Positions 8,629-25,072 of a DNA stretch of 64,000 bases are shown piece by piece (the first letter of the stretch is position 1; the number at the start of each line of letters is the position of its first letter). The position numbers and the translations under genes are program-made. The stretch is taken from NCBI RefSeq assembly GCF_001523745.2, contig NZ_CP013387.1:124001-188000 (forward strand), given 5' to 3'. A model generated the notes under the pieces. It did no database searches. It was not told where the DNA came from and was given only the letters and a program-made list of their open reading frames with translations. Source of the DNA: Burkholderia mayonis. GTDB lineage: Bacteria; Pseudomonadota; Gammaproteobacteria; Burkholderiales; Burkholderiaceae.

Positions 8629-11600
8629 ATGACTCGCGGCGAGCCGCACCGCCGATCGACGGCGAGCCGCATCGATAAGAACAAGATGCCATCCTGCATT
8701 TGGTCGAGGTCGCGCCACGCTGGGCGCCGCAATGCGGTCAAATTATTGGCCGCTGCATGCTTCGTATCGGTTGACGCCGACGCGGTTGCGTCGAAGCCGG
8801 AAAACCCGCCGCGCAAACTGCAACTGCATAGCAGCGCGGATGCCTATCAACGGCTGCCTGCGAAGCTCGAGCATCGGAGCCAAGCGCATTCGCCCAGAAC
8901 GGTGCGGGTAGCGGTAGCGCGCGACGGCGGCGTCCCATTCAACCTGTATCGCGATCGCGACCTGTACGAAGGCATGACCGCAGATTACCTCTACGTTATC
9001 CAGCAGGCCGGCGAGCTCCGCTTCGAGATCTGGATGTTCGACACGCGTGTACAGGCTCGCGCCGCATTGATAAGCGGCGCGGTCGATCTGATCGGCGGCG
9101 TCTCGCTGGATGCCGACCGGCATTTACTCCGATCGCTGCCCTACTTCAAGGATCGGCAGGTCGAAGTGCGCCTGCTCGGAGCAAAAGGCAGGGTGGAAGC
9201 CGCGCCGGCGCCGCCGGAAAACTACGCCGTGACGGCGGACGAGTTCGGCAACGCGGCTTTTCGCACCCGGTACCGGCACGAAAAGATCACCGCCTACCCT
9301 ACGACGCTCGGTGCGCTGCAATCGGTGGCCTACGGCACAGCCGACGCATTCATCGGCTCGGCCACCGAAGCGAACTACTTGATCGATCAATTGCAGTTGC
9401 CGCTGTCGATCACCAATTTCGCCGGCTCCGACGCGCCGCCGTCCGTGTTCGTCGCCCGCGTCACCGACACGAACCTGATCAACCGCATCAATGCGACGCT
9501 GCAAGCCATTCCGATCCGCATGGCCGGGGAAATTCAGCGACGCTGGTTCGGCTCGGCGAGTCATTTCAAGATCCGTCGAGATCTGGTGCTGACCGACGAA
9601 GAGCGCACGTACGTCAGGACGCATCCCGTCATTCGCTATGCCACCGCGATCGACCTGCCGCCCTATATATTCGTCGAGAGCAGCCGCGGAGACGTCACGG
9701 GCCTGGGCGTCGACGTCATGGACCTGATCAGCGAACGCACCGGTCTGACGTTCCAGCCCGTGTCCGTTGGCACCCGGCGAGAATTCTTCGGGGCGCTGAC
9801 CGACGGCAGGGTCGACTTGCTGCCGAACATTGCGATCGGCGACGTGCTCCAGCACCGGATGTCGCCGACCGCGCCGTACGCGCAGACTCTGTGGGCCGTC
9901 CTCGTCCGGGCCGGTGACAGCTCCGTCACCAGCACCGCGCATCTCGGCGGCAAGCGCGTCGGCATCATGGCGGAGACGCGCGAGTTCCAGCAGTTCAATC
10001 CGGAGCCTGTCGCGGGCAAGCCGCAGCTCATCGAGGCGCGCGACATCCCGACGCTGTTCCGCATGCTCCTCGACGGCAGCGTCGATGCGATTTCCCTGCC
10101 GGGCGCCACCGCCAACTACTTCATCGCGCAGTACGACCTCACCAAACTGGTCAAGGTCGTGACGACGGTCAACGAGTCGGTCACCAGCATCGCGATGGCC
10201 GTACGGCCCGACAACGAGCTGTTGCTGGCCATCATCAACAAGGTGCTGCAGGGCGTGCCACCGGAGGATCTCGACGCTTTGCGGCGCGACTGGATGCGCT
10301 ACCATTCGACCAGCGTGATTGCAGGTTGGTCCACGCTGCAGCGGCAGCGGATAGTCAAGGCGCTCGCGGCGCTGTCCGCCGTGCTAAGCGTGAGCGCGGG
10401 CGCGCTCGGCGTGATTCGCTACCGTCAGCGACGTCGCGCGCGCGGCTTGCGCGAGAGGATCGCGTTGCAGGACGCGCTGATCAACGCGCTGCCGTTTGCG
10501 GTTTTTCTGCGCCAGGCGGATGGGCGCGTCGTTAGTTGCAACGCATCCTTCGCCGAGGCATACGGGCTGCCGCGGGACGCGCTCGTCGGTGCTGACGTGC
10601 TGCCCACGCCCGCCAGCAGGCAACAAGCGTTGAACGCGATGCTCGAGGAACTGTACCAGGCCACGCTGACGGAGCGCGAGGCGCAATTCGCCGACAGAAC
10701 CTTGCCGGATGGCGGCGGTGATTCGGATCTGTTCATCTGGACGATTCCACTCAGGTGTCCGAGTTCGGGCGCCAGCGCCGTACTGGGCGGCTGGATCGAC
10801 ATCACGCTTCGCAAGCAGACCGAACGCGCGCTGAAGCAGGCCATGCTCGATGCGGAGGCCGCGAACCGGGCCAAGAGTACGTTTCTCGCGACAATCAGCC
10901 ACGAGATTCGCACGCCGATGAACGCGATCCTCGGCTTGCTCGAACTGGAGCTCGGCGCTTCTGGCGCGCCAAACCGGGACACCATCCGGATGGTGCGCGA
11001 AACCGCGAAATCACTCTTGCGTCTGATCAACGACCTGCTCGACACGTCCAGGGCCGAGGCGGGGCAGCTTCAGCTCGATCCCGGCCCGTCTGACGTGTCG
11101 AGCTGCGTCGAGCGGCTATTGTTGATATATCGGCCGCTCTGCGCGGAAAAAGGCCTGACGCTCAAGGCCGCAATTGACCCCGGCGTGCCGCAGACACTGC
11201 AGATGGATAGCCTGCGGATACGCCAGGTCGTCGGCAACCTGCTGGGCAATGCGCTGAAGTTCACCGACAGCGGCAGCATCAGCCTGAGCCTGCGATGGCA
11301 ATCGCGCGGCGATTCGCATGGGACGCTCGAGATCGCGGTGCGCGACACCGGGATCGGAATACACGCAGAAGACCAAGCCCGGCTGTTCCAGCCATTTGAA
11401 CAGGTCGCCGGTGCCGGAGCCGACTTCGGCGGGTCCGGCCTCGGGCTCTGGATCTGCCGCTCACTGGTTGCTCAAATGCGCGGCCAGATCGTGCTGGATA
11501 GCCAGTTCGGCGAAGGCACGGAGGTGCGCGTCTCGGTTCCGCTGTTGCGGGCTTCGTCGGTCGATGCAATGCCGGGGGCACTGCCGATACCGCGAGATTG

Positions 11601-12378
11601 GGTGCAGAAGCTGCGCGTGCTCGTGGTCGACGACCACTCACCGAATCGCATGCTGCTGGTGCGCCAGCTACACGCGCTCGGCTTCGAGGAAACGATCGAG
11701 GCCGGCGACGGGGAAGAGGCGTTTGCACTGCTGGAACGGGAAACGGTGGATGCGATCCTGACGGATTGCTCGATGCCGCGCATGAGCGGTTATGCGTTCG
11801 CCGCCGCGGTGCGAGCGGACGAGCGATGGCGCGATCTGCCGATCTTCGGATGCAGCGCCGACGCGCGCGCAGAAGCGCACGAGCAGGCGCTGTCCGCCGG
11901 CATGACTGTCTTTCTGACCAAGCCGGTCAGCCTGTCGGATCTGGCGCATGCATTCAACGTCCATCTGCGCGGCGCGACTTCCGTCGACCGCAGCACCGGG
12001 GACACGGCGGGAGATCCGGCGTCCGATACGATGGCGCTTGCCGCAGGTCCCACGCTGGCGGCGATCGCCGGTGACGACGTCGACGCCCGCAACGCGCTGA
12101 TTACAGCCCTGGTGCAGAGCAATGACGCAGATGTCCAGGCTTTGCAACAAGCAATGAACAGCGGCGGCATCGAAACCGCGATCCGGATCGCGCACCGCAT
12201 CAAGGGCAGTTGCCAGATCGTGGGCGCCGCGGAGCTCGAGCACGCCTGCATCCAGCTGGAGCGGCATTTGCAGGAAGGCGACATGACGGGCTCAAAGCGC
12301 CAGGCGAGGCGCGTCATCGCGCTGTGTGCCACCTTGCACGCGCATCTGCACACGTTGCAGCGGGAAGCGGTCGCGTGA
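8629..12378 (+). CDS. BvgS/EvgS-like hybrid sensor histidine kinase
   Basis: 1249 residues from ATG 8629, two bases after the preceding stop; the frame runs back inside the regulator gene but without reason to start there. Order: short N-terminal hydrophobic segment (around residues 37-52), first solute-binding (Venus flytrap) domain from about 88, second from about 332, membrane helix about 575-598, PAS about 612-725, HisKA with SHEIRTPMN (His near 757), HATPase about 858-975, receiver about 995-1110 (LTDCSMPRMSG), Hpt about 1143-1237 with AHRIKGS (His1189). This is the full BvgS layout. In the family the flytrap domains sense periplasmic conditions and the phosphorelay ends on the cognate NarL-type regulator, here the gene at 8000. 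The second receiver-only regulator at 13151 may be a further output. Confidence 0.95.
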   Translation: MTRGEPHRRSTASRIDKNKMPSCIWSRSRHAGRRNAVKLLAAACFVSVDADAVASKPENPPRKLQLHSSADAYQRLPAKLEHRSQAHSPRTVRVAVARDGGVPFNLYRDRDLYEGMTADYLYVIQQAGELRFEIWMFDTRVQARAALISGAVDLIGGVSLDADRHLLRSLPYFKDRQVEVRLLGAKGRVEAAPAPPENYAVTADEFGNAAFRTRYRHEKITAYPTTLGALQSVAYGTADAFIGSATEANYLIDQLQLPLSITNFAGSDAPPSVFVARVTDTNLINRINATLQAIPIRMAGEIQRRWFGSASHFKIRRDLVLTDEERTYVRTHPVIRYATAIDLPPYIFVESSRGDVTGLGVDVMDLISERTGLTFQPVSVGTRREFFGALTDGRVDLLPNIAIGDVLQHRMSPTAPYAQTLWAVLVRAGDSSVTSTAHLGGKRVGIMAETREFQQFNPEPVAGKPQLIEARDIPTLFRMLLDGSVDAISLPGATANYFIAQYDLTKLVKVVTTVNESVTSIAMAVRPDNELLLAIINKVLQGVPPEDLDALRRDWMRYHSTSVIAGWSTLQRQRIVKALAALSAVLSVSAGALGVIRYRQRRRARGLRERIALQDALINALPFAVFLRQADGRVVSCNASFAEAYGLPRDALVGADVLPTPASRQQALNAMLEELYQATLTEREAQFADRTLPDGGGDSDLFIWTIPLRCPSSGASAVLGGWIDITLRKQTERALKQAMLDAEAANRAKSTFLATISHEIRTPMNAILGLLELELGASGAPNRDTIRMVRETAKSLLRLINDLLDTSRAEAGQLQLDPGPSDVSSCVERLLLIYRPLCAEKGLTLKAAIDPGVPQTLQMDSLRIRQVVGNLLGNALKFTDSGSISLSLRWQSRGDSHGTLEIAVRDTGIGIHAEDQARLFQPFEQVAGAGADFGGSGLGLWICRSLVAQMRGQIVLDSQFGEGTEVRVSVPLLRASSVDAMPGALPIPRDWVQKLRVLVVDDHSPNRMLLVRQLHALGFEETIEAGDGEEAFALLERETVDAILTDCSMPRMSGYAFAAAVRADERWRDLPIFGCSADARAEAHEQALSAGMTVFLTKPVSLSDLAHAFNVHLRGATSVDRSTGDTAGDPASDTMALAAGPTLAAIAGDDVDARNALITALVQSNDADVQALQQAMNSGGIETAIRIAHRIKGSCQIVGAAELEHACIQLERHLQEGDMTGSKRQARRVIALCATLHAHLHTLQREAVA

Positions 12379-13150: not shown

Positions 13151-13792
13151 ATGGCAAGCATCACGTTATCGATCGCCGACGATCATCCGATCGTCCTGCA
13201 TTCGATCAAGCTGGTCGTCGAACGCCAGCCGTTGCTGCAATTGCGACATGTGTGCGACAGCGGGCGCGAACTTCTTTCCGCCTTGACTCGTGAGCCGACC
13301 GATCTGGTGCTGACCGATCTCACCATGCCCGCGCAAGGCGGTTCATACGACGGCCTGGCGCTGCTGCGCGCAGTGCGCGCGGCAGCGCCGCGCAGCAGGG
13401 TGATCGTCCTGACCGCGCAAAGCAATGTCGCGATGCTGACGAAAGCGATGCAACTCGGCGCGCTCGCGCTGGTCGGCAAGTCCGATCCGGCTAAGGAAAT
13501 CATTCGGGCCTGTATGCATGTCTACGCAGGCGCGACTCACCATCTGTCGCCGGCGATGCGCAAGAACATGGAAGACGACCGGTCGGCGCACACGCGGGAT
13601 TGCAACCTGACTCAAAAGGAACTCGACGTCGTGCGCCTGACGGCGATGGGACTCTCGTTGTCGGAAATCGCCATGCAATACCGGCGTTCGGTAAGTACGG
13701 TCGCGTCGCAGAAATCTACCGCGATGCGCAAGCTCGGCGTCCATTCCACGGCGGATCTGATCCGCTATGCCACCGAGAACGGATTGGCATGA
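13151..13792 (+). CDS. RcsB-like response regulator
   Basis: 213 residues from ATG 13151 (frame open back to 13064). The receiver begins ITLSIADDHPIVLHSIK; the acceptor region LTDLTMPAQGGSYDG closely resembles the RcsB form with its insertion after the MP, and the conserved Lys is in LVGKSDP. The LuxR-type helix-turn-helix is at the C-terminus (LTQKELDVVRLTAMGLSLSEIAMQYRRSVSTVASQKSTAMRKLGV). In P. aeruginosa an RcsB homologue activates cupD fimbriae. Here the gene sits directly before the type I secretion genes, with ATGA overlap to a possible start of the TolC-like gene, so it is likely the head of that operon and may auto-regulate it. Its kinase is probably one of the two hybrid kinases to the left. 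Confidence 0.9.
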   Translation: MASITLSIADDHPIVLHSIKLVVERQPLLQLRHVCDSGRELLSALTREPTDLVLTDLTMPAQGGSYDGLALLRAVRAAAPRSRVIVLTAQSNVAMLTKAMQLGALALVGKSDPAKEIIRACMHVYAGATHHLSPAMRKNMEDDRSAHTRDCNLTQKELDVVRLTAMGLSLSEIAMQYRRSVSTVASQKSTAMRKLGVHSTADLIRYATENGLA

Positions 13793-13917
13793 AAGCGACC
13801 CTGAACATCGCGATGGCGCAACGCGAAGCATCGGCATTCGAAAGAATGGATGGATTGCGATTTTCGCCACGGGCGTCGACGTTCAAACTGCATGCCTCGA
13901 ACGCCGCCGAAACGGGC

Positions 13918-15276
13918 ATGAGCATGAGCGTCGCTGGCGCTCCACGCCCGCGACGCAGAAGCTCATGGACGCTGCTGTGGTTCGCGTTCGTCGCACTGGC
14001 GCCGGCGGCGCACGCAACGACATTGGCGCAGGCGGTGGCGACGGCGCGCACGTTCGACTCCGCGATCTCCGCCGCGCGTCACAGCGAGCGTGCGGGCGCG
14101 CAGAAGCGCTGGCAAGGATTGGCCGGACTGCTGCCGAAGGTGCAGCTCGAAGGTTCGTACACGCGCCAGGATCAGCCGAGCGCGACGTATGCGGCCGGCG
14201 TGCGACGCCACTACTATGCGGTCACGTTGACGCAGCCGCTGTTCGACCTCAGCCGCTATGCCGACTACCAGCGTGGTGTCGCGCAGGCTAGCGGCGCAGA
14301 GGTGGAGCTCGCCAGTGCGCAGCAGCAACTCGTGAGCAACGTCTCCGATGCGTTCTTCGAGATCCTGTACCAGCGCGAAGTGCTGCAGGCCGCGCGCGCG
14401 GCCAAGGAGACCTTCGGGCAGGAACTCGGGCAGGCGCGTCTGGCGCTGAAAATCGGCGAAGGAACCCGGACCGACGTCGACGAGGCGCAGGCCAATTACG
14501 ACGACGCGCAAGCGCGCGAGATCGGCGCGGTCAACGATCTCGAAGTCGCCGGCGGCGCCTATGAGCGCCTGACCGGATTGCGGGCGGCCGACATCGATCC
14601 GCTCGCCGGCACGTGCCGGCCGCCGCCCCCGATGGCCGAGCTGGAGCAAACCCTCGCGCGCGCGGAAGCGGACAACCTCGAAGTCCGCGCGGCCACGTTC
14701 CAGCTCGACGAGGCGCAGGCCGATATCTCGACGGCGCGCGCGGGACATTTGCCGGTAGTGAACTTGCAAGGCAGCTACGGCAGCAACTGGAGTCGCGCGC
14801 AGAACAGTAACGCACTCGACGAACTGTTCGGCACGACCTCGAAGACGCGAACGTCGATGATCGGCATCACGGTGACGATCCCGCTGTTTTCCGGCGGCGC
14901 CGGAGTGGCGACGTCGCGCGAAGCGTACAGCCGCCGCGCGCAGCGCCGCGACCTGCTCGAGGACGCACGCCGGCGCGCACGTCAGGATGCGCGGGCCGCG
15001 TTCCTCGGCATCGTCAACGGCGCGGCCAAGCTCAAGGCGCAGCAACGAGCGGCGGAGTCCGCGCACAGCCGCGTCCAGTCCACGCATTACGGTCGCGAGG
15101 TCGGGCTGCGCACCAATGTCGACGAACTGACGGCACAGCAGAAGTATTTCGAGGCGGTGCGGGACCTTGCCGACGCGCGTTTCCGCTATATCACCGCGCG
15201 GCTGAAATTGTCGGCCGTGCTGGGCACGATCGCTCAGGACGACCTGAGCGAATTTGGATGTTTGACTGTTGACTAG
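13918..15276 (+). CDS. TolC-family outer-membrane efflux/secretion protein
   Basis: Outer-membrane channel of a type I secretion system. From ATG 13918 the product (452 residues) starts with a plain signal peptide: basic RPRRRSSW, hydrophobic TLLWFAFVALAP, then AAHA before ATTLAQAV. An alternative ATG at 13789 overlaps the upstream stop as ATGA and would add 43 residues in front of the signal peptide; it could serve translational coupling, but the signal peptide argues for the later start. The mature part shows the two-fold TolC repeat: LAQAVATAR...SAISAARHSE at the start, long coiled-coil helices rich in Ala/Gln/Glu, and GITVTIPLFSGG in the second half. HlyD-like and ABC partners follow within about 1.4 kb, so this is a dedicated channel. 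Confidence 0.9.
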   Translation: MSMSVAGAPRPRRRSSWTLLWFAFVALAPAAHATTLAQAVATARTFDSAISAARHSERAGAQKRWQGLAGLLPKVQLEGSYTRQDQPSATYAAGVRRHYYAVTLTQPLFDLSRYADYQRGVAQASGAEVELASAQQQLVSNVSDAFFEILYQREVLQAARAAKETFGQELGQARLALKIGEGTRTDVDEAQANYDDAQAREIGAVNDLEVAGGAYERLTGLRAADIDPLAGTCRPPPPMAELEQTLARAEADNLEVRAATFQLDEAQADISTARAGHLPVVNLQGSYGSNWSRAQNSNALDELFGTTSKTRTSMIGITVTIPLFSGGAGVATSREAYSRRAQRRDLLEDARRRARQDARAAFLGIVNGAAKLKAQQRAAESAHSRVQSTHYGREVGLRTNVDELTAQQKYFEAVRDLADARFRYITARLKLSAVLGTIAQDDLSEFGCLTVD

Positions 15277-15311
15277 GCGCATGCCGCCGAGGGTCTCATT
15301 GATGGATTGTT

Positions 15312-16571
15312 ATGTCTGACTCGCTGTTTCGCCCCGAGGCGCTGGAAGCCGGCAAGGGCAAGCTGATTGGCACGGTTGCGCTGTACTCGCCGCCTTACCG
15401 CTGGCTGCTCATCGCCATCGTGGCCGTGATCACCGTTTCCATCGCGGCCTTCATGGTGCTCGGTTCTTATACCAAGCGCGAACGCGTGATGGGGCAGCTC
15501 GTGCCCATCGCCGGCGTACTCAATGTCAGCCCGCCGGTTTCCGGCACGGTGGAAAAGATCGATGTCCGCGAAGGCCAGCGCGTGCACGCAGGCGATCCGC
15601 TCATGACGGTGTCCGCCGAAGTTGCGACCTCGTTGGGCGATGCTCGCGAGATGGTGCGCGCGCAACTCGAGACGCAACGCGAGCGTCTCCAGAGCGATCT
15701 GGGCGGCCAGACGGTGCTGGCCGAGGAAGCGATTCGCGGCCTGAAGGAACGAGCGGCGACATTGGAAGGCCAGCTACGCGAACTTCAACTGCAGCACGCG
15801 CACCGCGTGCGCCAGGTGGAGCTCGCCCGAAGCCAGCTCGAGAAGCTGTCGATGATGCGCACCCAAGGCTATGCCTCGAACTCGCAGGTCGATCAGCAGG
15901 AAACCAATGTCCTCGATGCGGAGGCTCGCCTGCAGGATTCCGTGCGCGCCCAGCTCGACGTGCGGGGCCAGTTGATCCAGGTGCGCCAGCAATTGCGCGA
16001 GCAGCCGCTGAATGCGCGTCAGCAGCGCAACGAGACGGGACGCAAGCTGGCGGAAACCGAACAGGCCATCGTCGAGAACGAAGCGCGCCGCTCCGTCGTG
16101 CTGCGCGCGCCGACCGACGGTGTGGTGGGTGCGATGCTGTTCAAGGCCGGGCAGAACGTCAACGCAGGACAGACCGCGGTGTCGGTGCTGCCTGCCGACG
16201 GCATGCTGGAAGCGCAGCTCATGGTGCCGAGCCGAGCCATCGGGTTCATTCATCCGGGACAGACCGTGGTGCTGCGTTACGAGGCTTACCCCTACCAGAA
16301 GTTCGGTCAGCAATTTGGCCGGGTGTCGGGAATTTCGCGCAGCGCGCTGTCGCCGCAGGAAGTCGCGGCGTTGACCGGCCAGCCCAATGTGCAGGAGCAG
16401 CATTACCGGCTGACCGTCGCGCTGGATCGCCAGGACATCGCCGTCTACGACCGCACGGAGCGCTTGCGGCCCGGTATGGCACTGGATGCCGATCTTCTGC
16501 TCGACCGGCGCACGCTGATCGAGTGGGTGCTGGAACCGATCTATGCGCTTGGCCGTCGGGCCAGCGCCTGA
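15312..16571 (+). CDS. HlyD-family membrane-fusion protein of a type I secretion system
   Basis: 419 residues from ATG 15312, 35 bases after the TolC-like gene. A cytoplasmic N-terminus leads into one membrane helix (WLLIAIVAVITVSIAAFMVLG, about residues 34-54), followed by a lipoyl/barrel half (GQLVPIAGVLNVSPPVSG), a long coiled coil (about residues 105-245, rich in Gln/Glu/Arg) and the returning barrel (RSVVLRAPTDGVVGAM). This is the CvaA/HlyD adaptor layout, bridging the inner-membrane ABC exporter and the outer-membrane channel. The C-terminal domain carries the RPGMALDADLLLDRR segment seen in colicin V and HlyD exporters. Confidence 0.93.
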   Translation: MSDSLFRPEALEAGKGKLIGTVALYSPPYRWLLIAIVAVITVSIAAFMVLGSYTKRERVMGQLVPIAGVLNVSPPVSGTVEKIDVREGQRVHAGDPLMTVSAEVATSLGDAREMVRAQLETQRERLQSDLGGQTVLAEEAIRGLKERAATLEGQLRELQLQHAHRVRQVELARSQLEKLSMMRTQGYASNSQVDQQETNVLDAEARLQDSVRAQLDVRGQLIQVRQQLREQPLNARQQRNETGRKLAETEQAIVENEARRSVVLRAPTDGVVGAMLFKAGQNVNAGQTAVSVLPADGMLEAQLMVPSRAIGFIHPGQTVVLRYEAYPYQKFGQQFGRVSGISRSALSPQEVAALTGQPNVQEQHYRLTVALDRQDIAVYDRTERLRPGMALDADLLLDRRTLIEWVLEPIYALGRRASA

Positions 16572-16637
16572 AATCGAACTGTTACGAATTACCGGCTTGC
16601 CGTCTGCGGCGTGCATGCCGGCACTGAAATCTGAACG

Positions 16638-18773
16638 ATGAGTATTTTGAATGCCTTACGCTTTGGCTGGGGACGTCGGCTACCGGTGATCCTGCAAACG
16701 CAAGCGGCCGAATGCGGTCTCGCTTGCGTTGGCATGGTGGCGGGATTCTTCGGCCACGACATCGACATGATGCATCTGCGCCAGCGCTTCACCACCTCGC
16801 TCAAGGGCACCACCCTCGGCGACGTGATGCGTATAGCCCAGCGTCTGGGGCTGGCGTCGCGCGCGCTGCGACTCGAGCTGGACGAACTCGGCCAACTGCG
16901 CCGTCCCTGTATCCTGCATTGGGAGATGAGCCACTTCGTGGTGCTCAAGCGGGTCGAGCGCGATCACATCGTCATCCACGATCCCGCGCGCGGCGCGCGC
17001 AAGGTGCCGATGGACGAAGTCTCGCGCTGCTTCACCGGCGTCGCGCTGGAATTGCTTCCGACCGCCGCGTTCGAGCGCAAGAGCGAGCGCGAATCGATTT
17101 CGATGCTGCGGCTGATCGGCAGCGTACTCGGCGTCCGCTCGGCCTTCGTCCAGGTGCTGACCCTGTCGGTGGCGCTGGAATTGTTCGGCATCCTGACGCC
17201 GTTCTACATGCAATGGGTGATGGATCATGTGCTGGTTTCGTCCGACCGTGATCTGCTGACGCTGCTGGGCATCGGCTTCGCGATGGTGGCGCTGTTCCAG
17301 ACCGCCGTCACGGCGCTGCGCTCGTGGGTCGTGACGTGGTTTTCCAGCCTGCTGAGTGTGCAATGGAGCGCCAATGTCTGCGCGCATCTGCTGCGGCTCC
17401 CCATGGCTTATTTCGAGCAGCGCCATATCGGCGACGTGGTGTCGCGCTTCGGCGCGGTGGGCACGATCCAGAACACGCTGACGTCGCGTTTCGTCGGCAC
17501 TTTGCTCGACGGTGTGATGGCCGTCGTCACGCTGGGCATGCTTTTCTTCTACAACCGCACGCTGACCTGGCTCGTGATCGCGCTGTTCGTCGCGTACGCG
17601 CTGCTGCGCGCGGTTGCCTACCGTCCGTTCCGGCAAGCCAACGAGGACCAGATCGTCTACGCGGCACGGACCGAGACCCAACTGCTGGAGTCGATTCGCG
17701 GCGTCCAGGCGATCAAGCTCGCCAACAAGCAGGATGAGCGCGTGGCGGTCTACGCCAACACCATGGTCGAGACCACCAACAAGGGAATCGCGATACAGCG
17801 CTTGTCCATCGGCTTCTCCACCGTCCACGGACTGGTTTCCGGCATGGGTCGGGTTGCGCTCATCTGGCTCGCTGCGCAGCAAGTCATCGACGGCAGTTTT
17901 TCCGCCGGTATGCTGATCGCCTACATCAGCTTCGCGGATCAATTCATCGGGCGCGGTTCCGGCCTGATCGACGCGCTGATTGAGTTCCGCATGCTGCGGC
18001 TGTACGGCGAACGCCTGGCCGATATCGTGCTGACGGAAGTCGAGGCCGACATGGAAGGGACCGTGGCATACGTGCCGAGCGCACAACGGGATGTACCGCC
18101 CGCCATCTCCGTGCGCAATTTGCGCTATCGCTATGCCGAAGGCGAACCCTGGGTGCTCGACGGCTGCTCGTTCGATATCGCCTCCGGCGAATCGGTCGCC
18201 ATCATCGGCCCCTCGGGGCAGGGAAAGACCACGCTGGCCAAGCTGCTGCTGGGGTTGCTCGATCCTCAGGAAGGCACGATTGCCGTGGACGGGGTCGATA
18301 TTCGCCATGTCGGTTTGCAGCACTACCGCGACCGCATCGGCTGCGTGATGCAGGACGACATCCTTTTCGCGGGATCGATCGCGGACAACATCTGCTTCTT
18401 CGATCTCGACCCGGACCAGGCGAGGATCGAGGAGGCGGCACGGCTGGCGCAGATTCACGACGACATCGCCGCGATGCCCATGGGCTACCAGAGCCTCGTG
18501 GGGGACATGGGTTCGTCCCTGTCGGGCGGCCAGTGTCAGCGTGTGTTGCTGGCGCGCGCACTGTATCGGCGTCCGGACATTCTGGTGCTGGACGAGGCCA
18601 CGAGCCATCTCGACGTAGCGCGCGAACTCGCGATCAACGAGGCCGTCGGCGCAATGCCGATCACGCGCATTCTGATCGCCCATCGCCCCGAAACCATCCG
18701 TAGCGCGGAGCGGGCCTTGCTGCTGGAAAACGGGTGCGCCACGTTCGTGCCGCTGCCGGTTGCAACGCAGTGA
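16638..18773 (+). CDS. Peptidase-containing ABC exporter (CvaB-type, C39 domain)
   Basis: 711 residues. The N-terminal C39 peptidase is complete: QTQAAECGLAC with Cys26, SHFVVL with His99 and HDPARG with Asp115. These three residues cut leader peptides after a double-glycine-type site. A six-helix transmembrane domain follows (about 160-430), then the ATPase with Walker A GPSGQGKTT, signature LSGGQCQRVLLARAL, Walker B ILVLDEATSHLD and the switch His in IAHRPET. An intact C39 domain separates this from RTX-toxin HlyB exporters, which have lost the cysteine. The obvious substrates are the two leader-bearing peptides encoded immediately downstream. It ends about 108 bases before the first of them. 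Confidence 0.95.
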   Translation: MSILNALRFGWGRRLPVILQTQAAECGLACVGMVAGFFGHDIDMMHLRQRFTTSLKGTTLGDVMRIAQRLGLASRALRLELDELGQLRRPCILHWEMSHFVVLKRVERDHIVIHDPARGARKVPMDEVSRCFTGVALELLPTAAFERKSERESISMLRLIGSVLGVRSAFVQVLTLSVALELFGILTPFYMQWVMDHVLVSSDRDLLTLLGIGFAMVALFQTAVTALRSWVVTWFSSLLSVQWSANVCAHLLRLPMAYFEQRHIGDVVSRFGAVGTIQNTLTSRFVGTLLDGVMAVVTLGMLFFYNRTLTWLVIALFVAYALLRAVAYRPFRQANEDQIVYAARTETQLLESIRGVQAIKLANKQDERVAVYANTMVETTNKGIAIQRLSIGFSTVHGLVSGMGRVALIWLAAQQVIDGSFSAGMLIAYISFADQFIGRGSGLIDALIEFRMLRLYGERLADIVLTEVEADMEGTVAYVPSAQRDVPPAISVRNLRYRYAEGEPWVLDGCSFDIASGESVAIIGPSGQGKTTLAKLLLGLLDPQEGTIAVDGVDIRHVGLQHYRDRIGCVMQDDILFAGSIADNICFFDLDPDQARIEEAARLAQIHDDIAAMPMGYQSLVGDMGSSLSGGQCQRVLLARALYRRPDILVLDEATSHLDVARELAINEAVGAMPITRILIAHRPETIRSAERALLLENGCATFVPLPVATQ

Positions 18774-18820
18774 GGCGCGTGTCGCGCATCGGCGCGAGGC
18801 GACGAGACCGATGACGATTC

Positions 18821-18847
18821 AAGCCGTCGGCGAACCGGCTTTCTTCG
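18821..18847 (+). terminator. Possible attenuating stem-loop before the peptide genes
   Basis: AAGCCG at 18821-18826 pairs with CGGCTT at 18836-18841, followed by TCTTCGTTC. The stem is short, so this would be leaky at most. Its place between exporter and peptide genes could help set separate expression levels. Confidence 0.3.
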
Positions 18848-18880
18848 TTCGCCAATCAACTATTTCAAAGGAGTAATTCA

Positions 18881-19195
18881 ATGCGTGAACTGACCATGAT
18901 GGAACTGGAACACGTCGCCGGTGCCGGCTTTTGGTCGAGCCTGGGCGCCAGCATTCTCGGCGGGCTTACGGGCTTCGCTACCGGGTTCTTCAAGGGCGGT
19001 GTGACCGGTGGCAGCACGGGCGGCATCGTGGGCGCCGGCATCATTTCGGCGGGTGTCGGCGCAATCGCCGGTGCGATCGTCGGCCTCGTAGGCGGTGCCA
19101 TTTACGGTCTGATGAACGACTGGGACTCGACGGCTTCGTGGTTCAACCAGAACATGAACAGCCTGCTCGATCCGACCTATCCGGCACTGACGTAA
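18881..19195 (+). CDS. Glycine-zipper, leader-bearing secreted peptide (ColV/Cdz-like bacteriocin precursor)
   Basis: 104 residues from ATG 18881, with a strong AAAGGAG seven bases upstream. The first 15 residues, MRELTMMELEHVAGA, are a ColV-type leader; the likely C39 cut is after GA15, as in microcin E492, whose leader also ends in GA, giving an 89-residue product starting GFWSS. Glycines stand at 27, 31, 35, 39, 43, 47 and 51, exactly four apart, and again at 60, 64, 68, 72 and 76: a nearly perfect GxxxG glycine zipper through a hydrophobic core. The tail (from N79) is polar with two Trp. Class II microcins and the Caulobacter CdzC/CdzD contact-dependent bacteriocins share these traits. 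The adjacent exporter has the matching peptidase. A killing role is inference; no immunity gene is obvious. A surface or aggregating function is the alternative. Confidence 0.85.
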   Translation: MRELTMMELEHVAGAGFWSSLGASILGGLTGFATGFFKGGVTGGSTGGIVGAGIISAGVGAIAGAIVGLVGGAIYGLMNDWDSTASWFNQNMNSLLDPTYPALT

Positions 19196-19241
19196 ATCCG
19201 ATGGCCGCCTCGTTCCGCACGGCGCGACCGCAGCACGCCAA

Positions 19242-19267
19242 GCGCCCGGGACGGCGCGGCTTTGTTT
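19242..19267 (+). terminator. Candidate intrinsic terminator between the two peptide genes
   Basis: GCGCC (19242-19246) and GGCGC (19253-19257) form a short GC stem with a six-base loop, followed by GGC and TTTGTTT at 19261-19267. Short stem, so probably partial termination, which would make the first peptide more abundant than the second. Confidence 0.35.
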
Positions 19268-19314
19268 AACAATGTCGGAGTCCAGACGATCCGACGTTAA
19301 TGAAGGAGCTGAAA

Positions 19315-19572
19315 ATGCGTGAACTCAACCGCATGGAAACGGGGAAGGTCGCCGGCGCCTGGAGCTGGTCGGATATCACGACCAGCTCGATCATGTCGAT
19401 GTTCCGTCCGGCGTCGTCCGCCGAACTCACCGTGAGAGAAGCGCCGGAGCTGACCGGCGGCGCGGTCGGCTTGGGCGACACCTTCGGCAAGGTCGCCGCG
19501 GCGCTGCTGGTCGGCGGCGTGTTGCTCGCCAGCGGTATCGGCGCGGGCCTGCTGTCGTTGGTACGTCGTTGA
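19315..19572 (+). CDS. Second leader-bearing small secreted peptide
   Basis: 85 residues from ATG 19315, preceded by AAGGAG eight bases upstream; an in-frame ATG at 19300 overlaps that ribosome-binding site and is less likely. The leader MRELNRMETGKVAGA aligns position by position with that of the preceding peptide (MREL, M7, E8, V12-A15), so both should be cut by the same C39 exporter. The rest is different: WSWSDI..., a short Pro/Glu stretch, then a hydrophobic C-terminal helix (about 60-83, VAAALLVGGVLLASGIGAG) ending RR. Residues 38-49 (LTVREAPELTGG) look faintly like a second leader ending in GG. It may be the partner of a two-peptide system, by analogy with CdzC/CdzD, or a membrane protein protecting the producer. 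Too short to match a named family. Confidence 0.75.
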   Translation: MRELNRMETGKVAGAWSWSDITTSSIMSMFRPASSAELTVREAPELTGGAVGLGDTFGKVAAALLVGGVLLASGIGAGLLSLVRR

Positions 19573-19632: not shown

Positions 19633-19792
19633 CATGGCGCCACCGCCATTGCCAGTTTCACCACTTCGAATTTGGACGTTTTGCGATTTAAGGATTCCGA
19701 ATGATAGGCCAGAATGAATCGTTGTCCGCAGTGTCGTTGCATGGCGAGACAACAATCAACACCTGTTCAATCAACCTGAAAACGTGAATCAA

Positions 19793-20320
19793 ATGAACCA
19801 GAAAATCGCATTCGGCATTCTCTCCGCCGCACTCGCACTGCCCATGGCCGCTCACGCATCGGACGGCACCATCACGTTCAACGGCGCAATCGAAGCACAG
19901 ACCTGCACGATCAGCGTGAACGGCGGCAATCAGGATGCTACCGTCCAGCTCCCGACGGTCGCGGCAAGCACGCTGAGCACGAAGGGCAGTACCGCTGGCG
20001 CCACCAATTTCACCATCGCGCTGAGCGAATGCTCTGGCGACGCCACGCAGGTCCGCGCTTTCTTTGAGGCAGGCCCGAACGTCGACGCCACGAGCGGCAA
20101 CCTGAACAACAACGGTTCCGCAACGCAAGTGCAGGTTCAGCTTCTGAACGAAGACGGCGTCGTGCTGCAAGCCGGCGACGAGTCGCAGCGCAGCAACGCA
20201 GCTTCGACGCTGACGGATGGCGCGGCAACGCTCGTCTACGGTGCACAGTACTATGCAACTGGCGCTGCCACCGCGGGTGACGTTCAAACTTCGGTGACCT
20301 ACTCGATCGACTATCTGTAA
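19793..20320 (+). CDS. Major pilin of a chaperone-usher (type 1-like) pilus
   Basis: 175 residues from ATG 19793 (a GTG at 19784 is an alternative). Signal peptide MNQKIAFGILSAALALPMAAHA, then SDGTITFNGAIEAQTC. The two cysteines (in EAQTC and LSECSG) would form the family disulfide. The C-terminal strand VTYSIDYL carries the alternating hydrophobic residues and penultimate tyrosine used for donor-strand exchange. Size fits FimA-class subunits. A terminator-like hairpin directly behind it suggests it is made in excess over chaperone and usher. Confidence 0.92.
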   Translation: MNQKIAFGILSAALALPMAAHASDGTITFNGAIEAQTCTISVNGGNQDATVQLPTVAASTLSTKGSTAGATNFTIALSECSGDATQVRAFFEAGPNVDATSGNLNNNGSATQVQVQLLNEDGVVLQAGDESQRSNAASTLTDGAATLVYGAQYYATGAATAGDVQTSVTYSIDYL

Positions 20321-20333
20321 GCACCGTCGGCAA

Positions 20334-20361: not shown

Positions 20362-20410
20362 GCGACAAGGAGGGCTTATTCCAGTCCTCCTTCGTAGGCT
20401 GGAATCCACT

Positions 20411-21184
20411 ATGCTCTCATTCAGAACGCCGAAGCGCGGTCGCTCGCGGCCGCATCTCTTCGTCCTCGTCCTTGCTCTCGTCGTCAGCACTCACGCGGCA
20501 GCCAATATCGTTCTGTTCGGCACGCGCGTGATTTATCCCGAGGGGCAGCGTGAAGTGTCCGTGCGCATGAACAATCGGGGTGAACAGCCCGGACTGGTTC
20601 AGGCATGGGTCGATCGCGGCGACACGAAAGCGACGCCGGACAAGGCCGACGCGCCGTTCGTCATCACGCCGCCGATTTCCCGCGTCGAGCCCGGCAAGGG
20701 GCAGACGTTGCGGCTTTCCTTTCTCGGCGACAACGTGCCGGAGAACAAAGAGTCGCTGTACTGGCTGAACGTGCTCGATATTCCGCCCAGGCCGAAAGCT
20801 GCCGAAGGCGAAAACCTAATCCAGCTCGCGATCCGCACGCGCGTCAAGATATTCCTGCGTCCGGCAGCGCTGACCGACGAGGGAGCGCTGGCCGCCCCGC
20901 AACAAGTGCAATGGCAGGTGCAGCGTGATGGCAATGGCCGCGTTCAGGGCGTCCTGGCGAGCAATCCCAGCGCTTACTACGTCAATATCGCGGCGGTCGA
21001 GGTCGGTCCCGAAGGCAAAGCCGTACCTGCCAGCGACGGGGCGATGATCGCTCCGGGCGAGACCCATCTGTTCCGCTTCGCTTCGCCGCTTCCGGCACAG
21101 CTCGAGAAAGCGCGCGTGGCGTTTGGATATATCACCGACTACGGCGGCATTGCTCGCGGCGAAAGCACGCTCGGCACGCCCTGA
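20411..21184 (+). CDS. Periplasmic pilus chaperone (PapD/FimC family)
   Basis: 257 residues from ATG 20411; upstream in-frame codons lack a signal peptide start. Signal peptide: basic N-region PKRGRSRPH, then LFVLVLALVVSTHAAA. The mature part begins NIVLFGTRVIYPEGQREVSVRMNN, the conserved first strands of the family, with Arg and Tyr-Pro in place. RTRVKIFLRP carries the basic residue that anchors the subunit carboxylate, and PISRVEPGKGQTLRL the F1-G1 region. It escorts the pilin and the adhesin-like subunit to the usher. The start has only a weak ribosome-binding site; GGAGG occurs about 40 bases upstream within a hairpin, hinting at structured translation control. Confidence 0.92.
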   Translation: MLSFRTPKRGRSRPHLFVLVLALVVSTHAAANIVLFGTRVIYPEGQREVSVRMNNRGEQPGLVQAWVDRGDTKATPDKADAPFVITPPISRVEPGKGQTLRLSFLGDNVPENKESLYWLNVLDIPPRPKAAEGENLIQLAIRTRVKIFLRPAALTDEGALAAPQQVQWQVQRDGNGRVQGVLASNPSAYYVNIAAVEVGPEGKAVPASDGAMIAPGETHLFRFASPLPAQLEKARVAFGYITDYGGIARGESTLGTP

Positions 21185-21268
21185 CCACTCCCGGTTCCGC
21201 TCCGAGCCGCGACCCGCCCCGTAGTCGGCGGCGGTTCCAGGTGCGGCGCACTTCAACCTTCAGCCACC

Positions 21269-23953
21269 ATGGAAATCAATCACTCGGCCCGTCCGAGGGC
21301 GGTGCGCGCTCGCGCGCGTCAGCCGGTTCTCAGACCTCTCCCCGCGGCGGTGTTATTGGCCAGCATGAGCGTGGCCCAGTATGCGTCGGCCGCGAACGAT
21401 AGCGCATCCGCTCCCGCGCCGGGCCGCCAGCCGACCACGACGCTGGCCAGCGCGGACTTCGACCAGAGCTTCCTCCGGTCCGGTTCGGGCGAGACCGTCG
21501 ATTTGTCCCGATTCGCCAACGGTAACCCGCTGCTGCCTGGCGAATACCGTGCGGATGTCTATGTGGCGGATCGCTTCATCGGCCGAGAATCCGTCACTGT
21601 CAAGTCGGGCGATGGTCCCAACAGCGCCGCGCGCATCTGCGTGTCGCGCACGCTGTTTGATCGTCTGGCCATCGATCCCGCACAGGTGCCCGCGGACTTG
21701 CTCGCGCGGCTTGCCGACCCGGCGGGTTGCGTCACCATCGAGGCGCTGTCCGACGACGCGCACGCCAGCCTCGACACCGCGGAGCTTCGGCTCGATGTCA
21801 GTCTGCCGCAGGCATTGATGCGTCGCCACGCCCGAGGTTACGTCGACCCGGCGCTGTGGGATTCGGGTATCACGGCGGGCATGCTGGGCTACAACGCCAC
21901 TTTTTACCGAAGTGAGTCCGGCAACCTGACGCAGCAGTCGGCCTACGTCGGCATCAATGCCGGCTTTAACGTCGGCGGCTGGATGTTCCGCCATAGCGGC
22001 TCCTACCAGTGGCGCGAACGTGAACCTTCGCGCTACAGCTCGATCCGGACTTATGTGCAGCGTGACATCACGCCGATGAAGGCGCGCGTGACGTTGGGCG
22101 AATCCAACACCAGCGGCGAGATCTTCGACACCTTTGCATTCCGCGGCGTACAGCTCGCCACCGATGACCAGATGTGGCCGGAGTCGATGCGCGGGTACGC
22201 GCCGGTGGTCCGCGGCATCGCGCAAACGCATGCTCGCGTGACGGTGCGTCAGGGCGACGCCGTGCTGTACGAAACCTCGGTTGCGCCGGGCGAATTCGTG
22301 ATCGACGATCTGTACCCGACCGGGTACGGCGGCGACCTCAATGTCACGGTGACGGAGGCCGACGGCCGCGTCCAGGAGTACAAGGTGCCCTACGCGTCGG
22401 TCGCACAGCTGCTGCGGCCCGGCAGGACGCGCTACAGCGTGGTCGCCGGCATGGTGCGATACAGCGGGTTGAGCTACTTGCCGAGGGTGATCCAGGCAAC
22501 CGTGCAGCGAGGCCTGTCCAACAGCTTCACCGCGTACGCGGGGGCCCAGGTCACGAATGACTACGGCGCCGTGCTCGCGGGCGGAGCGTTCAGCACCCCA
22601 GTGGGTGCGTTCGCGCTCGACGTGACCAAATCGTGGGTGTCGTCCGCGGGTCTCAGACGCAACGGCACCAGCGTGCGTGCGACGTACAGCAAGCTGATCA
22701 CGTCGACCAGCAGCAATCTGTCGGTGGCGGCGTACCGTTTCTCGTCGTCGGGCTACATGGACCTGCAGAACGCGCTGCAGTACAGCGACCAGGCGCGGCG
22801 CGGCACGCTGAGCGATAACTCCTGGACGACGAGCCGGCCGCGCAACCGGCTGTCGGTAACGGCAAGCCAGGGCTTCGGCCGGCGCGGCGGCAATCTCTAC
22901 ATTAGCGGCTACAGCCAGAACTTCTGGGACCGTTCGGGCAGCGACACCCAATTCCAGATCGGTTACAGCAACAATTTCCGTTCGCTTGGCTATACGGTCT
23001 CGATCAGCCGCAGCCGTACTTCGCTGGGGCAGATGGAAAACATCTACATGCTGTCGCTGTCAGTGCCGCTGGGGGGCAGGTCGCACGCGCCGACACTCAA
23101 CATGGCCGTGACCAACGGGGCGGATGGCACCAGCGTGCGCTCCACCGTCAACGGTACGGCGCTGAATGACAACGCGCTCGACTACAGCATCGGCGTGACG
23201 CGCAATGCGAACCGCGACGTCGGCGCCAACGGGTCGGTGTTGTACCGCTCGCACTACAGCGCGTTGCAGGGCAGCTTCGATGTGGCCGACCGCTATCGTG
23301 CGATGTCCGCGGGCGCCAGCGGCATGCTGGTCGCCGACGGCGGCGGCGTCACGGCTTCGCCGTACAGCGCGCAGTCGATCGCGATCGTGGAAGCGCCCGC
23401 GGCCGCCGGTGCGCGCGTGCTTGGGTATTCGGCCATCGTGCTCGACCGCAACGGCCGTGCGGTGGTGCCGTACCTGAATCCGTACCGGCTCAACGAAGTG
23501 TCCATCGATCCCAACGGGCTGTCTGACGACGTCGAGCTTCTCACGACGCGGCAGCAGGTTGCGCCCCGGAGCGGCGCAATCGTCAAGGTTCGCTACGGCA
23601 CCGTGGTCGGACGGCCGGTCCTGGTGCGGGGGACGCTGCCTGGCGGCAACGTGCTGCCGTTCGGGGCCTCCGTGGTCGATCCGGAAGGCAATGCGATCGG
23701 CATCGTCGGTCAGAACGGGCAGTTGTACGCGCGCCTCGCCGATGGGCTCGAGAAGCTGATCGTCAAGTGGGGCGAGCACGAACGCAATACCTGCATGCTC
23801 ACATTGCCCGAGCAGGCGCCGGACACCGCTGACGGCAAGAAGGGGCCTCTCAAGCACCTGCAACGTTTCGACGCGATGTGCCAGCCGCTCGCGTCGGAAG
23901 CGAACCAAGCCGCGTCGATGCGGCCGCGCAGAGTGATGCAGACATCCGGTTGA
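21269..23953 (+). CDS. Outer-membrane usher (PapC/FimD family)
   Basis: 894 residues, normal for the family. An N-terminal signal segment ends near AQYASA. The N-terminal domain (FDQSFLRSGSGETVDLSRFANGNPLLPGEYRADVYV) carries the family's start motif LPGxYxVDVYVN. A 24-strand barrel with a plug domain follows (PVVRGIAQTHARVTVRQGDAVLYETSVAPGEFVIDDL), and the C-terminal domains end with ARLADGLEKLIVKWG and a cysteine-bearing tail. It translocates and polymerises subunits. Gene order pilin-chaperone-usher-adhesin is complete. Confidence 0.95.
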   Translation: MEINHSARPRAVRARARQPVLRPLPAAVLLASMSVAQYASAANDSASAPAPGRQPTTTLASADFDQSFLRSGSGETVDLSRFANGNPLLPGEYRADVYVADRFIGRESVTVKSGDGPNSAARICVSRTLFDRLAIDPAQVPADLLARLADPAGCVTIEALSDDAHASLDTAELRLDVSLPQALMRRHARGYVDPALWDSGITAGMLGYNATFYRSESGNLTQQSAYVGINAGFNVGGWMFRHSGSYQWREREPSRYSSIRTYVQRDITPMKARVTLGESNTSGEIFDTFAFRGVQLATDDQMWPESMRGYAPVVRGIAQTHARVTVRQGDAVLYETSVAPGEFVIDDLYPTGYGGDLNVTVTEADGRVQEYKVPYASVAQLLRPGRTRYSVVAGMVRYSGLSYLPRVIQATVQRGLSNSFTAYAGAQVTNDYGAVLAGGAFSTPVGAFALDVTKSWVSSAGLRRNGTSVRATYSKLITSTSSNLSVAAYRFSSSGYMDLQNALQYSDQARRGTLSDNSWTTSRPRNRLSVTASQGFGRRGGNLYISGYSQNFWDRSGSDTQFQIGYSNNFRSLGYTVSISRSRTSLGQMENIYMLSLSVPLGGRSHAPTLNMAVTNGADGTSVRSTVNGTALNDNALDYSIGVTRNANRDVGANGSVLYRSHYSALQGSFDVADRYRAMSAGASGMLVADGGGVTASPYSAQSIAIVEAPAAAGARVLGYSAIVLDRNGRAVVPYLNPYRLNEVSIDPNGLSDDVELLTTRQQVAPRSGAIVKVRYGTVVGRPVLVRGTLPGGNVLPFGASVVDPEGNAIGIVGQNGQLYARLADGLEKLIVKWGEHERNTCMLTLPEQAPDTADGKKGPLKHLQRFDAMCQPLASEANQAASMRPRRVMQTSG

Positions 23954-24019
23954 GCATGCGTTCCCACCACCGCGATCGCCACCTGCGTGGCGATTTCCCC
24001 TGATGATGAAAGGACGATT

Positions 24020-25072
24020 GTGATCAAGGAATACATACTGAAGCTCGGGCGCTCGTCGGTTCGGCGTCTTCTGCCCTGGGTGGCGCTGAGCCTGCTTTGC
24101 ACCGGGACGGCGCATGCGACGCTGAACTGTTCGGTGGGTAGCGGCGAAAGCGTCGTGCTGCTTGACTTGACCCAGAAAATCCTGGTGCCGGAGGATGCAC
24201 CGATCGGAACGGTGCTGATGAGCGCCCATGGCGTCAGCCGTACCGCTCAATGCATGCTGAATGTCACGTATCCGTTGACGAGCGAGTATGCGTATGTGCG
24301 CCGTCCCGACCTGACCACCAGCAACCGGATCGGCAGCGGCTTGGCGATCTACGTGACTTACAACGGCGATCGCGGCAATTCGGCGGCCAGTTGGAAAACC
24401 GACGTGCTGGTCGACTCGGCGGTCAAGAGCGTTTCCGTACCGTTCACGGTGGACATCGAGCTGGTCAAGGTCGGGGAGACGCCCACGAGCTCCGATATCA
24501 AGTTGCCGAGCAACTATGTTCACGTGCTCAGTGTGGCGGACCCGAATCAGAATTTGCTGGTTCAGGGTGGAAACGCGATGTATTTCATTAGAGGCCTGCA
24601 AGATGTCGTGGTGTTTACCAAGAGCACTTGCTCGGTCGTCGGAGACGCCAATCCCGTGGTCAATCTCGGCACGTTTGCGGCCAATGGCCAATCGGGCCTC
24701 GGTTCTGGCATCGGTTCGACCTCGCCGTCGCGGGATTTCACGCTGGAACTTGATTGCAAACAGGGCAATACCGGCGCGTTCTCCGTCGCGCTGACACTGG
24801 ACGGCCAGACGGCATCCGGTTATGACAGCGCCGGCGTGCTGGCGCTGTCGTCGCAGACCGGCGCGGCGACCGGCGTCGGCGTGCAGGTCCTGAAAGGCGA
24901 TGCCGGTTCGCAGACGGCCGTGCAATTCGGCTCGGCATGGGACGTCACGTCGCGATGGCAGTCGGATGGACGCATACAGCTTCCGTTCTCGGCCCGCTAT
25001 TACCAGACCGCCGACACCGTCACCCCTGGGCCGGCCAACGCTACGGCCACCTATACCATCAGCTACATGTAG
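24020..25072 (+). CDS. Fimbrial tip adhesin-like subunit
   Basis: 350 residues from GTG 24020, chosen because AAAGGA precedes it; the frame is open a little further upstream. Signal peptide: basic KLGRSSVRR, then LLPWVALSLLCTGTAHA. At about twice the pilin's length it has the two-domain adhesin layout: an N-terminal domain (ATLNCSVGSGESVVLLDL...) and a C-terminal pilin domain beginning at about residue 205 (CSVVGDANPVVNLGTF...) and ending ATYTISYM, a donor-strand motif. The last gene of the operon usually encodes the tip receptor-binding subunit. The ligand cannot be predicted. Confidence 0.85.
   Translation: MIKEYILKLGRSSVRRLLPWVALSLLCTGTAHATLNCSVGSGESVVLLDLTQKILVPEDAPIGTVLMSAHGVSRTAQCMLNVTYPLTSEYAYVRRPDLTTSNRIGSGLAIYVTYNGDRGNSAASWKTDVLVDSAVKSVSVPFTVDIELVKVGETPTSSDIKLPSNYVHVLSVADPNQNLLVQGGNAMYFIRGLQDVVVFTKSTCSVVGDANPVVNLGTFAANGQSGLGSGIGSTSPSRDFTLELDCKQGNTGAFSVALTLDGQTASGYDSAGVLALSSQTGAATGVGVQVLKGDAGSQTAVQFGSAWDVTSRWQSDGRIQLPFSARYYQTADTVTPGPANATATYTISYM

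Follow-up and report, generated by a model that had tools for sequence, protein, structure and literature searches.

A C39 peptide exporter with two leader-bearing peptides, coupled to a chaperone-usher fimbria in Burkholderia and Pantoea

Two kinds of described system come closest to the locus considered here, a C39 peptide exporter with two small peptides and a fimbrial operon, found in a 64,000-nucleotide stretch of Burkholderia mayonis DNA (contig NZ_CP013387.1, positions 124,001 to 188,000; hereafter ‘the window’). A class II microcin gene has an immunity gene beside it, whose product is canonically an inner-membrane protein, according to the accessible part of PMC13101503. For Cdz, the accessible part of PMC5380434, to which all our statements on that system refer, names Burkholderia cepacia among the Cdz-like candidates, 14% of which have two adjacent proteins, and places many such systems near lateral-transfer genes, fimbrial adhesins included; it describes immunity genes as hard to identify, and associates CdzC with surface fibrils whilst leaving open which fibrils bear it and whether these serve in attachment.

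Measured against these, the window's locus is best likened, in how it works, to a C39 peptide exporter coupled to a fimbria. A TolC-like, an HlyD-like and a C39-ABC gene are followed by the two peptide genes and then by a chaperone-usher operon, all on the + strand; both this grouping, conserved in Burkholderia and (in another order) in Pantoea, and a 17-bp upstream motif common to exporter and fimbria make the three look like one co-regulated module. Our favoured reading, a tentative one, is of a single contact module in which the peptides would most likely serve as a Cdz-like two-peptide antagonist.

The exporter and its two peptides

Three open reading frames (ORFs) on the + strand form the type I system: a TolC-like outer-membrane factor (13918..15276; Pfam OEP 5.8e-55; NCBIfam TIGR01844 283.6 bits, cut-off 225.15), an HlyD-like membrane-fusion protein (15312..16571; Pfam HlyD_3 1.8e-18) and a C39 peptidase-ABC exporter, or PCAT (16638..18773; Pfam Peptidase_C39 5e-34, ABC_membrane 5.2e-35, ABC_tran 3.8e-33). 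The last matches the PCAT1 chain 4ry2_A over its full length (E 1.1e-102), with C26, H99 and D115 aligned to the C, H and D of that chain, so that an original prediction, made from the sequence alone, was right in proposing an exporter with an intact C39 peptidase as well as in the order TolC-like, HlyD-like, C39-ABC and two small genes. The features expected of a PCAT are all seen: the catalytic Cys/His/Asp, the ABC membrane and ATPase domains, the HlyD-like and TolC-like partners, and cargo whose leaders, at 15 aa with a GA end, fall within the 15–25 aa and the GG, GA or GS ending expected. In a PADLOC search neither peptide has a match, and the exporter matches mad3 (8.4e-26) and mad8 (1.4e-6) through its ATPase part only.

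Peptide 1 (18881..19195, + strand; 104 aa) comprises a 15-aa leader, MRELTMMELEHVAGA (18881..18925), and an 89-aa glycine-zipper part modelled as a helical hairpin; peptide 2 (19315..19572, + strand; 85 aa) has a 15-aa leader, MRELNRMETGKVAGA (19315..19359), then an amphipathic/proline-rich part and a C-terminal hydrophobic helix. The leaders are identical at 10 of their 15 residues (M1, R2, E3, L4, M7, E8, V12, A13, G14 and A15), a level reached by none of 200,000 shuffles; the shared leader claimed originally is thus confirmed, given that peptide 2 starts at 19315, a position that we prefer to the longer ATG at 19300 because GGAG lies just before it and because the upstream Met is absent in a close relative (L021 in our numbering). 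In both peptides the predicted cut falls after GA15: residue 15 closes the VxG[GA] pattern in 53 of the 55 relatives of peptide 1 that were aligned, and the leader pattern in 39 of the 44 aligned for peptide 2. The leader of MccV can be likened to the same form, MR[E/T]LxxxE...VxG[GA].

At all 12 loci aligned (9 Burkholderia, 3 Pantoea), relatives of peptides 1 and 2 with GG- or GA-ending leaders lie side by side, peptide 2 after peptide 1, and the pair is found at four further loci (L045, L069, L070 and L071; the annotated peptide-1 gene is shortened in L071). Amongst the three closest loci, the ratio of non-synonymous to synonymous substitution rates (dN/dS) is 0.09–0.24 for peptide 1 and 0.19–0.29 for peptide 2 (six pairwise tests); these low values, together with the adjacent leader-bearing relatives, lead us to regard both as real genes.

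Mature peptide 1 (89 aa) contains 21 glycines, making up 12 GxxxG and 9 GxxxGxxxG motifs, each count unmatched in 20,000 shuffles, and AlphaFold2 models the peptide as a two-helix hairpin (residues 17–44 and 52–96) with a predicted local distance difference test score (pLDDT) of 79.9 and a predicted template modelling score of 0.67. Its residues 1–56 match Pfam MccV (8.1e-4, 20.4 bits) below the cut-off of 27; DUF5862 also matches below its Pfam cut-off. Searches with 48 relatives of peptide 1 yield DUF5862 for nine, MccV for three (E 1e-3) and Bacteriocin_IIc for two. Mature peptide 2 (70 aa) has a single hydrophobic helix, at its C-terminus, and gives a poor structure model (pLDDT 61.3).

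The fimbrial operon, its upstream motif and their conservation

Directly 3′ of peptide 2 we see a chaperone-usher operon (19784-25072), overlooked in the original prediction, as were the regulators upstream of the exporter. The components that define such an operon are all present within it on the + strand: a FimA-type major fimbrial subunit (19784..20320; PF16970 FimA 1.1e-19), a PapD-like periplasmic chaperone (20408..21184; PapD_N 9.3e-42, PapD_C 4.1e-14), an outer-membrane usher (21269..23953; Usher 2.4e-157) and a putative tip adhesin or minor fimbrin (23987..25072), the latter carrying PF00419 Fimbrial (5.9e-18) at its C-terminus and having relatives located after the usher elsewhere.

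Linking exporter and fimbria is a 17-bp motif, TGGAYGNNNTGCGATTT, which we spotted by eye before each of the two operons. Both copies are exact and on the + strand, the first (TGGATGGATTGCGATTT, 13847..13863) 71 bp before the TolC-like gene and the second (TGGACGTTTTGCGATTT, 19673..19689) 111 bp before fimA; they are the only exact copies in the organism's own genome (6,590,914 bases), where six sites are found at one mismatch or fewer and none for a reversed-pattern control. A weight matrix built solely from fimA-upstream sites, taken from nine of ten Burkholderia loci (plasmid pRF23 included; L003, with five mismatches, was dropped), finds upstream of the exporter a site that beats all 134–210 background windows of the same locus in nine of the ten, the weakest being those of L024 (9.6 bits, where the background peaks at 6.1) and L025 (12.3, where it peaks at 9.2). 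In Pantoea the best site of the locus (19.0–23.9 bits over 20–25 kb) lies 95–133 bp before peptide 1, there the first gene, in seven of seven loci. Loci with a partial module also retain sites: before the exporter in L056 (14.3) and L060 (12.3), before fimA in L068 (34.2), and between fimA and the exporter in L058 (16.8); L057 has none (8.6), and in L059 the best site (17.7) is on the other strand, beyond a second fimA-like gene. Scans for promoters and terminators gave no excess over shuffles.

Upstream of the exporter, again on the + strand, lie a LuxR-type response regulator (8000..8626; Response_reg 5.7e-26, GerE 2.7e-19), a hybrid sensor kinase (8632..12378; start uncertain, the ORF being open from 8515) and a second LuxR-type response regulator (13154..13792; Response_reg 7.3e-18, GerE 2.5e-11). 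The kinase, which we take to be ‘BvgS/EvgS-like’, is built from two SBP_bac_3 domains, PAS, HisKA, HATPase_c, Response_reg and Hpt; in pRF23 a response regulator likewise precedes the sensor kinase. Response regulator 2, the candidate regulator of the module, has RcsB, MctR and FimZ as its best NCBIfam matches, all below cut-off, and a relative of it (29–90% identity) is found in or near the cluster at the other loci; it, or such a relative, is the obvious candidate for binding the motif.

Among 65 Burkholderia genomes, peptide 1 has strong matches (E <= 1e-20) in 8, at nine loci, and matches at E <= 0.01 in 10. A single-sequence search with peptide 2 matches 3 of the 65, one of them weakly; inspection by eye of the interval that follows peptide 1 reveals a leader-bearing relative of peptide 2 in nine of nine Burkholderia and three of three Pantoea loci read. 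Wider sampling finds matches in 9 of 299 genomes of the family (seven Burkholderia, and a single genome from each of two further genera), in 3 of 398 of the phylum (the organism's own and two weak partial matches) and in 1 of 369 of the class (its own).

The order exporter, peptide 1, peptide 2, FimA, PapD, usher is kept at eight of the nine Burkholderia genome loci, the window's included, and the exporter and fimbrial proteins of the others are 41–98% identical to those of the window. At the ninth, L003, peptide 2 is followed immediately by an adhesin-like gene, and the fimbrial operon, a different one, lies about 5 kb further on. The B. ubonensis plasmid pRF23, typed as conjugative, carries the whole set, kinase and regulators included. 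At L024 the C39-ABC reading frame is split between two overlapping ORFs, so this copy may be broken, or the split may be a sequencing error; L046, from another genus of the family (G213), holds the set TolC, HlyD, C39 and peptide 1, at which point the contig ends.

A profile search with peptide 1, in which scoring was confined to the 7,989 candidates sharing most words, returns 105 proteins; the named ones are mostly from Pantoea and Burkholderia, accompanied by Erwinia, Serratia, Gibbsiella and Citrobacter rodentium and, more distantly, by Xylella and Acetobacter, and some are named ‘Colicin V synthesis protein’ in UniRef. The equivalent search with peptide 2 returns 88 proteins, with Rahnella and Erwinia among them. 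The relatives in Citrobacter rodentium, Serratia, Gibbsiella and Rahnella are known as proteins alone.

Plasmid records containing the family number 43 for Pantoea and one for Burkholderia. In Pantoea the genes run on one strand in the order peptide 1, peptide 2, FimA, PapD, usher, adhesin, response regulator, TolC, HlyD, C39-ABC and a DcrB-like gene, this full reordered set being present in five of the seven records read out of the 43 (one view ends inside the exporter gene). In the other two, FimA through C39-ABC is missing as a block, with remnants between the same flanks: these Pantoea agglomerans plasmids (L071 and L072) keep peptide remnants and the motif, and L072 an annotated DcrB-like remnant as well. 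On the Pantoea vagans C9-1 plasmid pPag1 (L030) the annotation divides the response regulator in two (17725-18386), whereas on plasmid pPagL15_2 of Pantoea agglomerans L15 it is annotated whole. Compared with three Pantoea loci, the window's peptide 1 is 48–53% and its FimA 53–58% identical.

Strength of the coupling and possible roles of the peptides

Relatives of the exporter with at least 72% identity occupy 14 loci, spread over 13 of the 65 Burkholderia genomes (one match is partial, the exporter being split in two ORFs), and fimbrial genes lie in the stretch of about 20 kb around 12 of these, directly adjacent in eight; in L003 and L057–L059 the fimbrial operons near the exporter are other or divergent ones. 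Ushers of at least 50% identity (rounded) occur in exactly the eight genomes with strong peptide-1 matches plus G062. A second class of exporter, at 50–54% identity, is found at 30 loci in the same 65 genomes; seven of these were fetched, and none of the six that are readable has a fimbrial operon in 20 kb. Comparing 12 of 14 with 0 of 6 gives a Fisher exact p of 0.0007, which overstates the independence of the data because the loci are related by descent. We considered whether the second class belongs to the system and set it apart; its six readable loci reach best motif scores of 6.8–11.1, overlapping the weakest accepted site, and several second-class loci have MQEL-type GG- or GA-leader peptides of their own. 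One such exporter (53% identity) is found elsewhere in the same genome (L061: G000, contig C1, ~477545-482300; close match L062), accompanied by HlyD- and TolC-like genes and by two GG-leader peptides of the MQEL type, and has no fimbriae in 20 kb.

In the mechanism that we have in mind, the C39 exporter would recognise the MREL...E...VxGA leaders of both peptides, cut after GA15 and export the mature products. The same regulatory signal would turn on the chaperone-usher fimbria, through which cells would come to touch, and the peptides, a glycine-zipper hairpin and its single-helix partner, would exert their effect at or on the membrane of the cell so contacted; the producer's own protection would come from a source other than an adjacent immunity gene. 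That the same parts co-occur in plant-associated Pantoea suggests that the peptides may act at cell-to-cell contact; the pairing of the peptides, the zipper, and a leader and exporter of microcin type incline us towards Cdz-like contact antagonism. An antibacterial role for the peptides is plausible; of the antibacterial peptide pair proposed originally, the intact exporter and the two leader-bearing cargo peptides stand, and the antibacterial part does not follow from the genes we see, an adjacent immunity gene having been sought and not found. The pilus, which the original prediction had named as a possible refutation, belongs by synteny and shared upstream motif to the same module.

Several observations weigh against this reading, or blunt it. 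To begin with the immunity gene, conserved small ORFs (28–200 aa) at 13 loci turn out, apart from the peptides, to be pieces of larger genes, frames antisense to them, or else flanking genes (amongst them, in Pantoea, a regulator that precedes peptide 1, and another, conserved small gene that we take to be fliQ-like). Hydrophobic small ORFs (30–160 aa) in 19 kb of the window number seven: the two peptides, four antisense frames, whose likeness in two close relatives is to be expected because they lie inside large genes, and one that overlaps the next transporter gene by 86% and is not conserved. A small membrane immunity gene adjacent to the peptides was accordingly not found at the locus, immunity elsewhere in the genome not having been searched for. 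Nor is the coupling absolute, six loci holding only some of the parts: L056 and L060 have the exporter and a response regulator, with neither fimbrial genes nor peptides; L068 keeps the fimbria and lacks both exporter and peptides; and L057–L059 combine exporter (73–74%) and fimbria with no peptide passing our filters. Around the weak peptide-1-like matches (G026 twice, a second copy in G040, G038 and G076), the stretches read contain neither a close exporter nor a fimbrial operon. The motif is absent on both sides in L003, and within the 64-kb window alone its two matches at one mismatch or fewer are less remarkable: shuffles average 0.31, and 4 in 100 of them likewise yield two. A fold search of peptide 1 against the PDB gave 28 matches at E <= 10 and none at E <= 0.001 (best E 3.2), and the glycine zipper of peptide 2 is insignificant, its three GxxxG motifs being matched by 9.5% of shuffles; the likeness to microcins and glycine-zipper peptides suggested at the outset is visible in peptide 1, with its 12 GxxxG motifs and weak MccV match.

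Two candidates for the protecting protein were considered and dropped. We set peptide 2 itself aside because it bears an export leader of its own. The DcrB-like protein encoded after the C39 exporter in Pantoea (PF08786 7.3e-20 in L030; seen also in L031, L069 and L070), the sole candidate there apart from the peptides, has no match in the window's genome, and is possibly a cargo chaperone.

Of the other explanations, the one that most deserves weight is that the C39-exported pair coats, spaces or anchors the fimbria or cell surface, in adhesion, aggregation or biofilm formation, and is not toxic at all. This is possible, and indeed nearly as likely as antagonism because no immunity gene was found at the locus; proteins exported by type I systems that coat the cell and work with fimbriae offer a loose analogy. 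Peptides and fimbria are co-conserved across beta- and gammaproteobacteria in spite of their rearranged order, and share the motif; the peptides are under purifying selection (dN/dS 0.09–0.29), peptide 1 being conserved nearly as well as FimA in the comparison with Pantoea given above. Set against this are the microcin-type leader and exporter, a resemblance, weak though recurring, to the models of MccV and of class II bacteriocins, and the retention of the fimbria without the peptides in L068. We consider it unlikely that the locus encodes an ordinary diffusible class II microcin or two-peptide bacteriocin with the fimbria as an unrelated passenger of a mobile island: the patchy distribution, in part on plasmids (strong matches in 8 of 65 Burkholderia genomes; 43 Pantoea and one Burkholderia plasmid records), the existence of partial loci and the frequent proximity of Cdz-like systems to lateral-transfer genes, fimbrial adhesins included (PMC5380434), would all suit it, and yet an unrelated passenger would hardly account for a cis motif common to exporter and fimA, for the same partners on one strand in another order in Pantoea, or for 0/6 second-class exporters near fimbriae, and the immunity gene that such a microcin would lead one to expect was not found at the locus. 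Least probable is that one or both exported peptides are signals, sensed by the hybrid kinase through its two periplasmic SBP_bac_3 domains and setting fimbrial expression. Gram-positive double-glycine pheromones do use C39 exporters, and kinase and response regulators lie directly upstream in the window, L021 and pRF23; the five complete Pantoea clusters, however, have a response regulator and no annotated kinase, and peptide 1, modelled as a large hydrophobic hairpin, would be unlike such pheromones.

Returning to the contact module, we propose, more broadly and with confidence somewhat short of an even chance, that this is export dedicated to a fimbria: C39-exported GG/GA-leader peptides as the working partners of a chaperone-usher pilus, under one cis-motif and carried between beta- and gammaproteobacteria, in which the pilus would be the organ of contact or display and the peptides the active agents, either self-protected without a dedicated immunity gene or non-toxic. 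With peptide pair, exporter and one chaperone-usher fimbria tied together, the idea of pili as a contact device for small exported peptides becomes testable; the same association cautions that not every C39/GG-leader peptide is a microcin, and that peptides without an immunity gene found nearby may be fimbrial factors.

Comparison with known systems

Descriptions of a fimbria-linked C39 peptide system were not found among the best matches of the literature searched, beyond the general remarks in the accessible part of PMC5380434. PMC9746304 and PMC11494933 mention neither Burkholderia, Pantoea, fimbri- nor pilus; as far as their accessible text goes, PMC13101503 has no fimbri-, pilus or Burkholderia, PMC13174018, which screened Pantoea microcin candidates, no fimbria- or Burkholderia, PMC10233263 nothing on fimbria-linked C39 peptides, and PMC8386478, on contact killing by Proteus, no fimbria or pilus, whilst that of PMC3505739 describes other fimbriae and bacteriocins on another Pantoea plasmid. 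The original statement that no Burkholderia case had been described is contradicted in part by the B. cepacia entry among the Cdz-like candidates in the accessible part of PMC5380434, which is not established to be the same type of locus. What is apparently new, in that we found it nowhere described in these sources to the extent that their text is accessible, is a dedicated chaperone-usher fimbria under a motif common to the peptide exporter and kept in both Burkholderia and Pantoea.

We do not assign the locus to the class II microcins or to Cdz, because defining features that were tested failed. With microcins of the MccV/ColV type (PF17508; accessible parts of PMC10233263, PMC13101503 and PMC13174018) it has in common the C39 exporter and small hydrophobic cargo, and differs in that peptide 1 falls below the Pfam cut-off, in having two peptides and a fimbrial operon, and in that no adjacent immunity gene was found. 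With PCAT1-type exporters (4ry2) the likeness extends over the full-length sequence and the C/H/D triad; the window's exporter differs by having HlyD-like and TolC-like partners in its own operon.

The likeness to Cdz of Caulobacter crescentus, judged by the published criteria and not by the CdzC/CdzD sequences, lies in a type I exporter with two adjacent small leader peptides (PMC5380434). Both peptides fall within the published 60–151 aa and have the G[G/A/S] leader end (104 and 85 aa, GA leaders), and peptide 1 fits in its length, leader end, glycine zipper and polar C-terminus. The window's locus differs from Cdz in that peptide 2 lacks a significant zipper and no small multi-transmembrane protein like CdzI was found at the locus; it has, moreover, its own TolC-like gene, a dedicated chaperone-usher fimbria and the shared motif, the latter two absent from the description in the accessible part of PMC5380434. 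Finally, the window's operon resembles type-1-like chaperone-usher fimbriae in its order of FimA, PapD-like chaperone, usher and fimbrin-domain adhesin, and differs from them by the leader-peptide pair that precedes it and by an upstream motif held in common with a peptide exporter.

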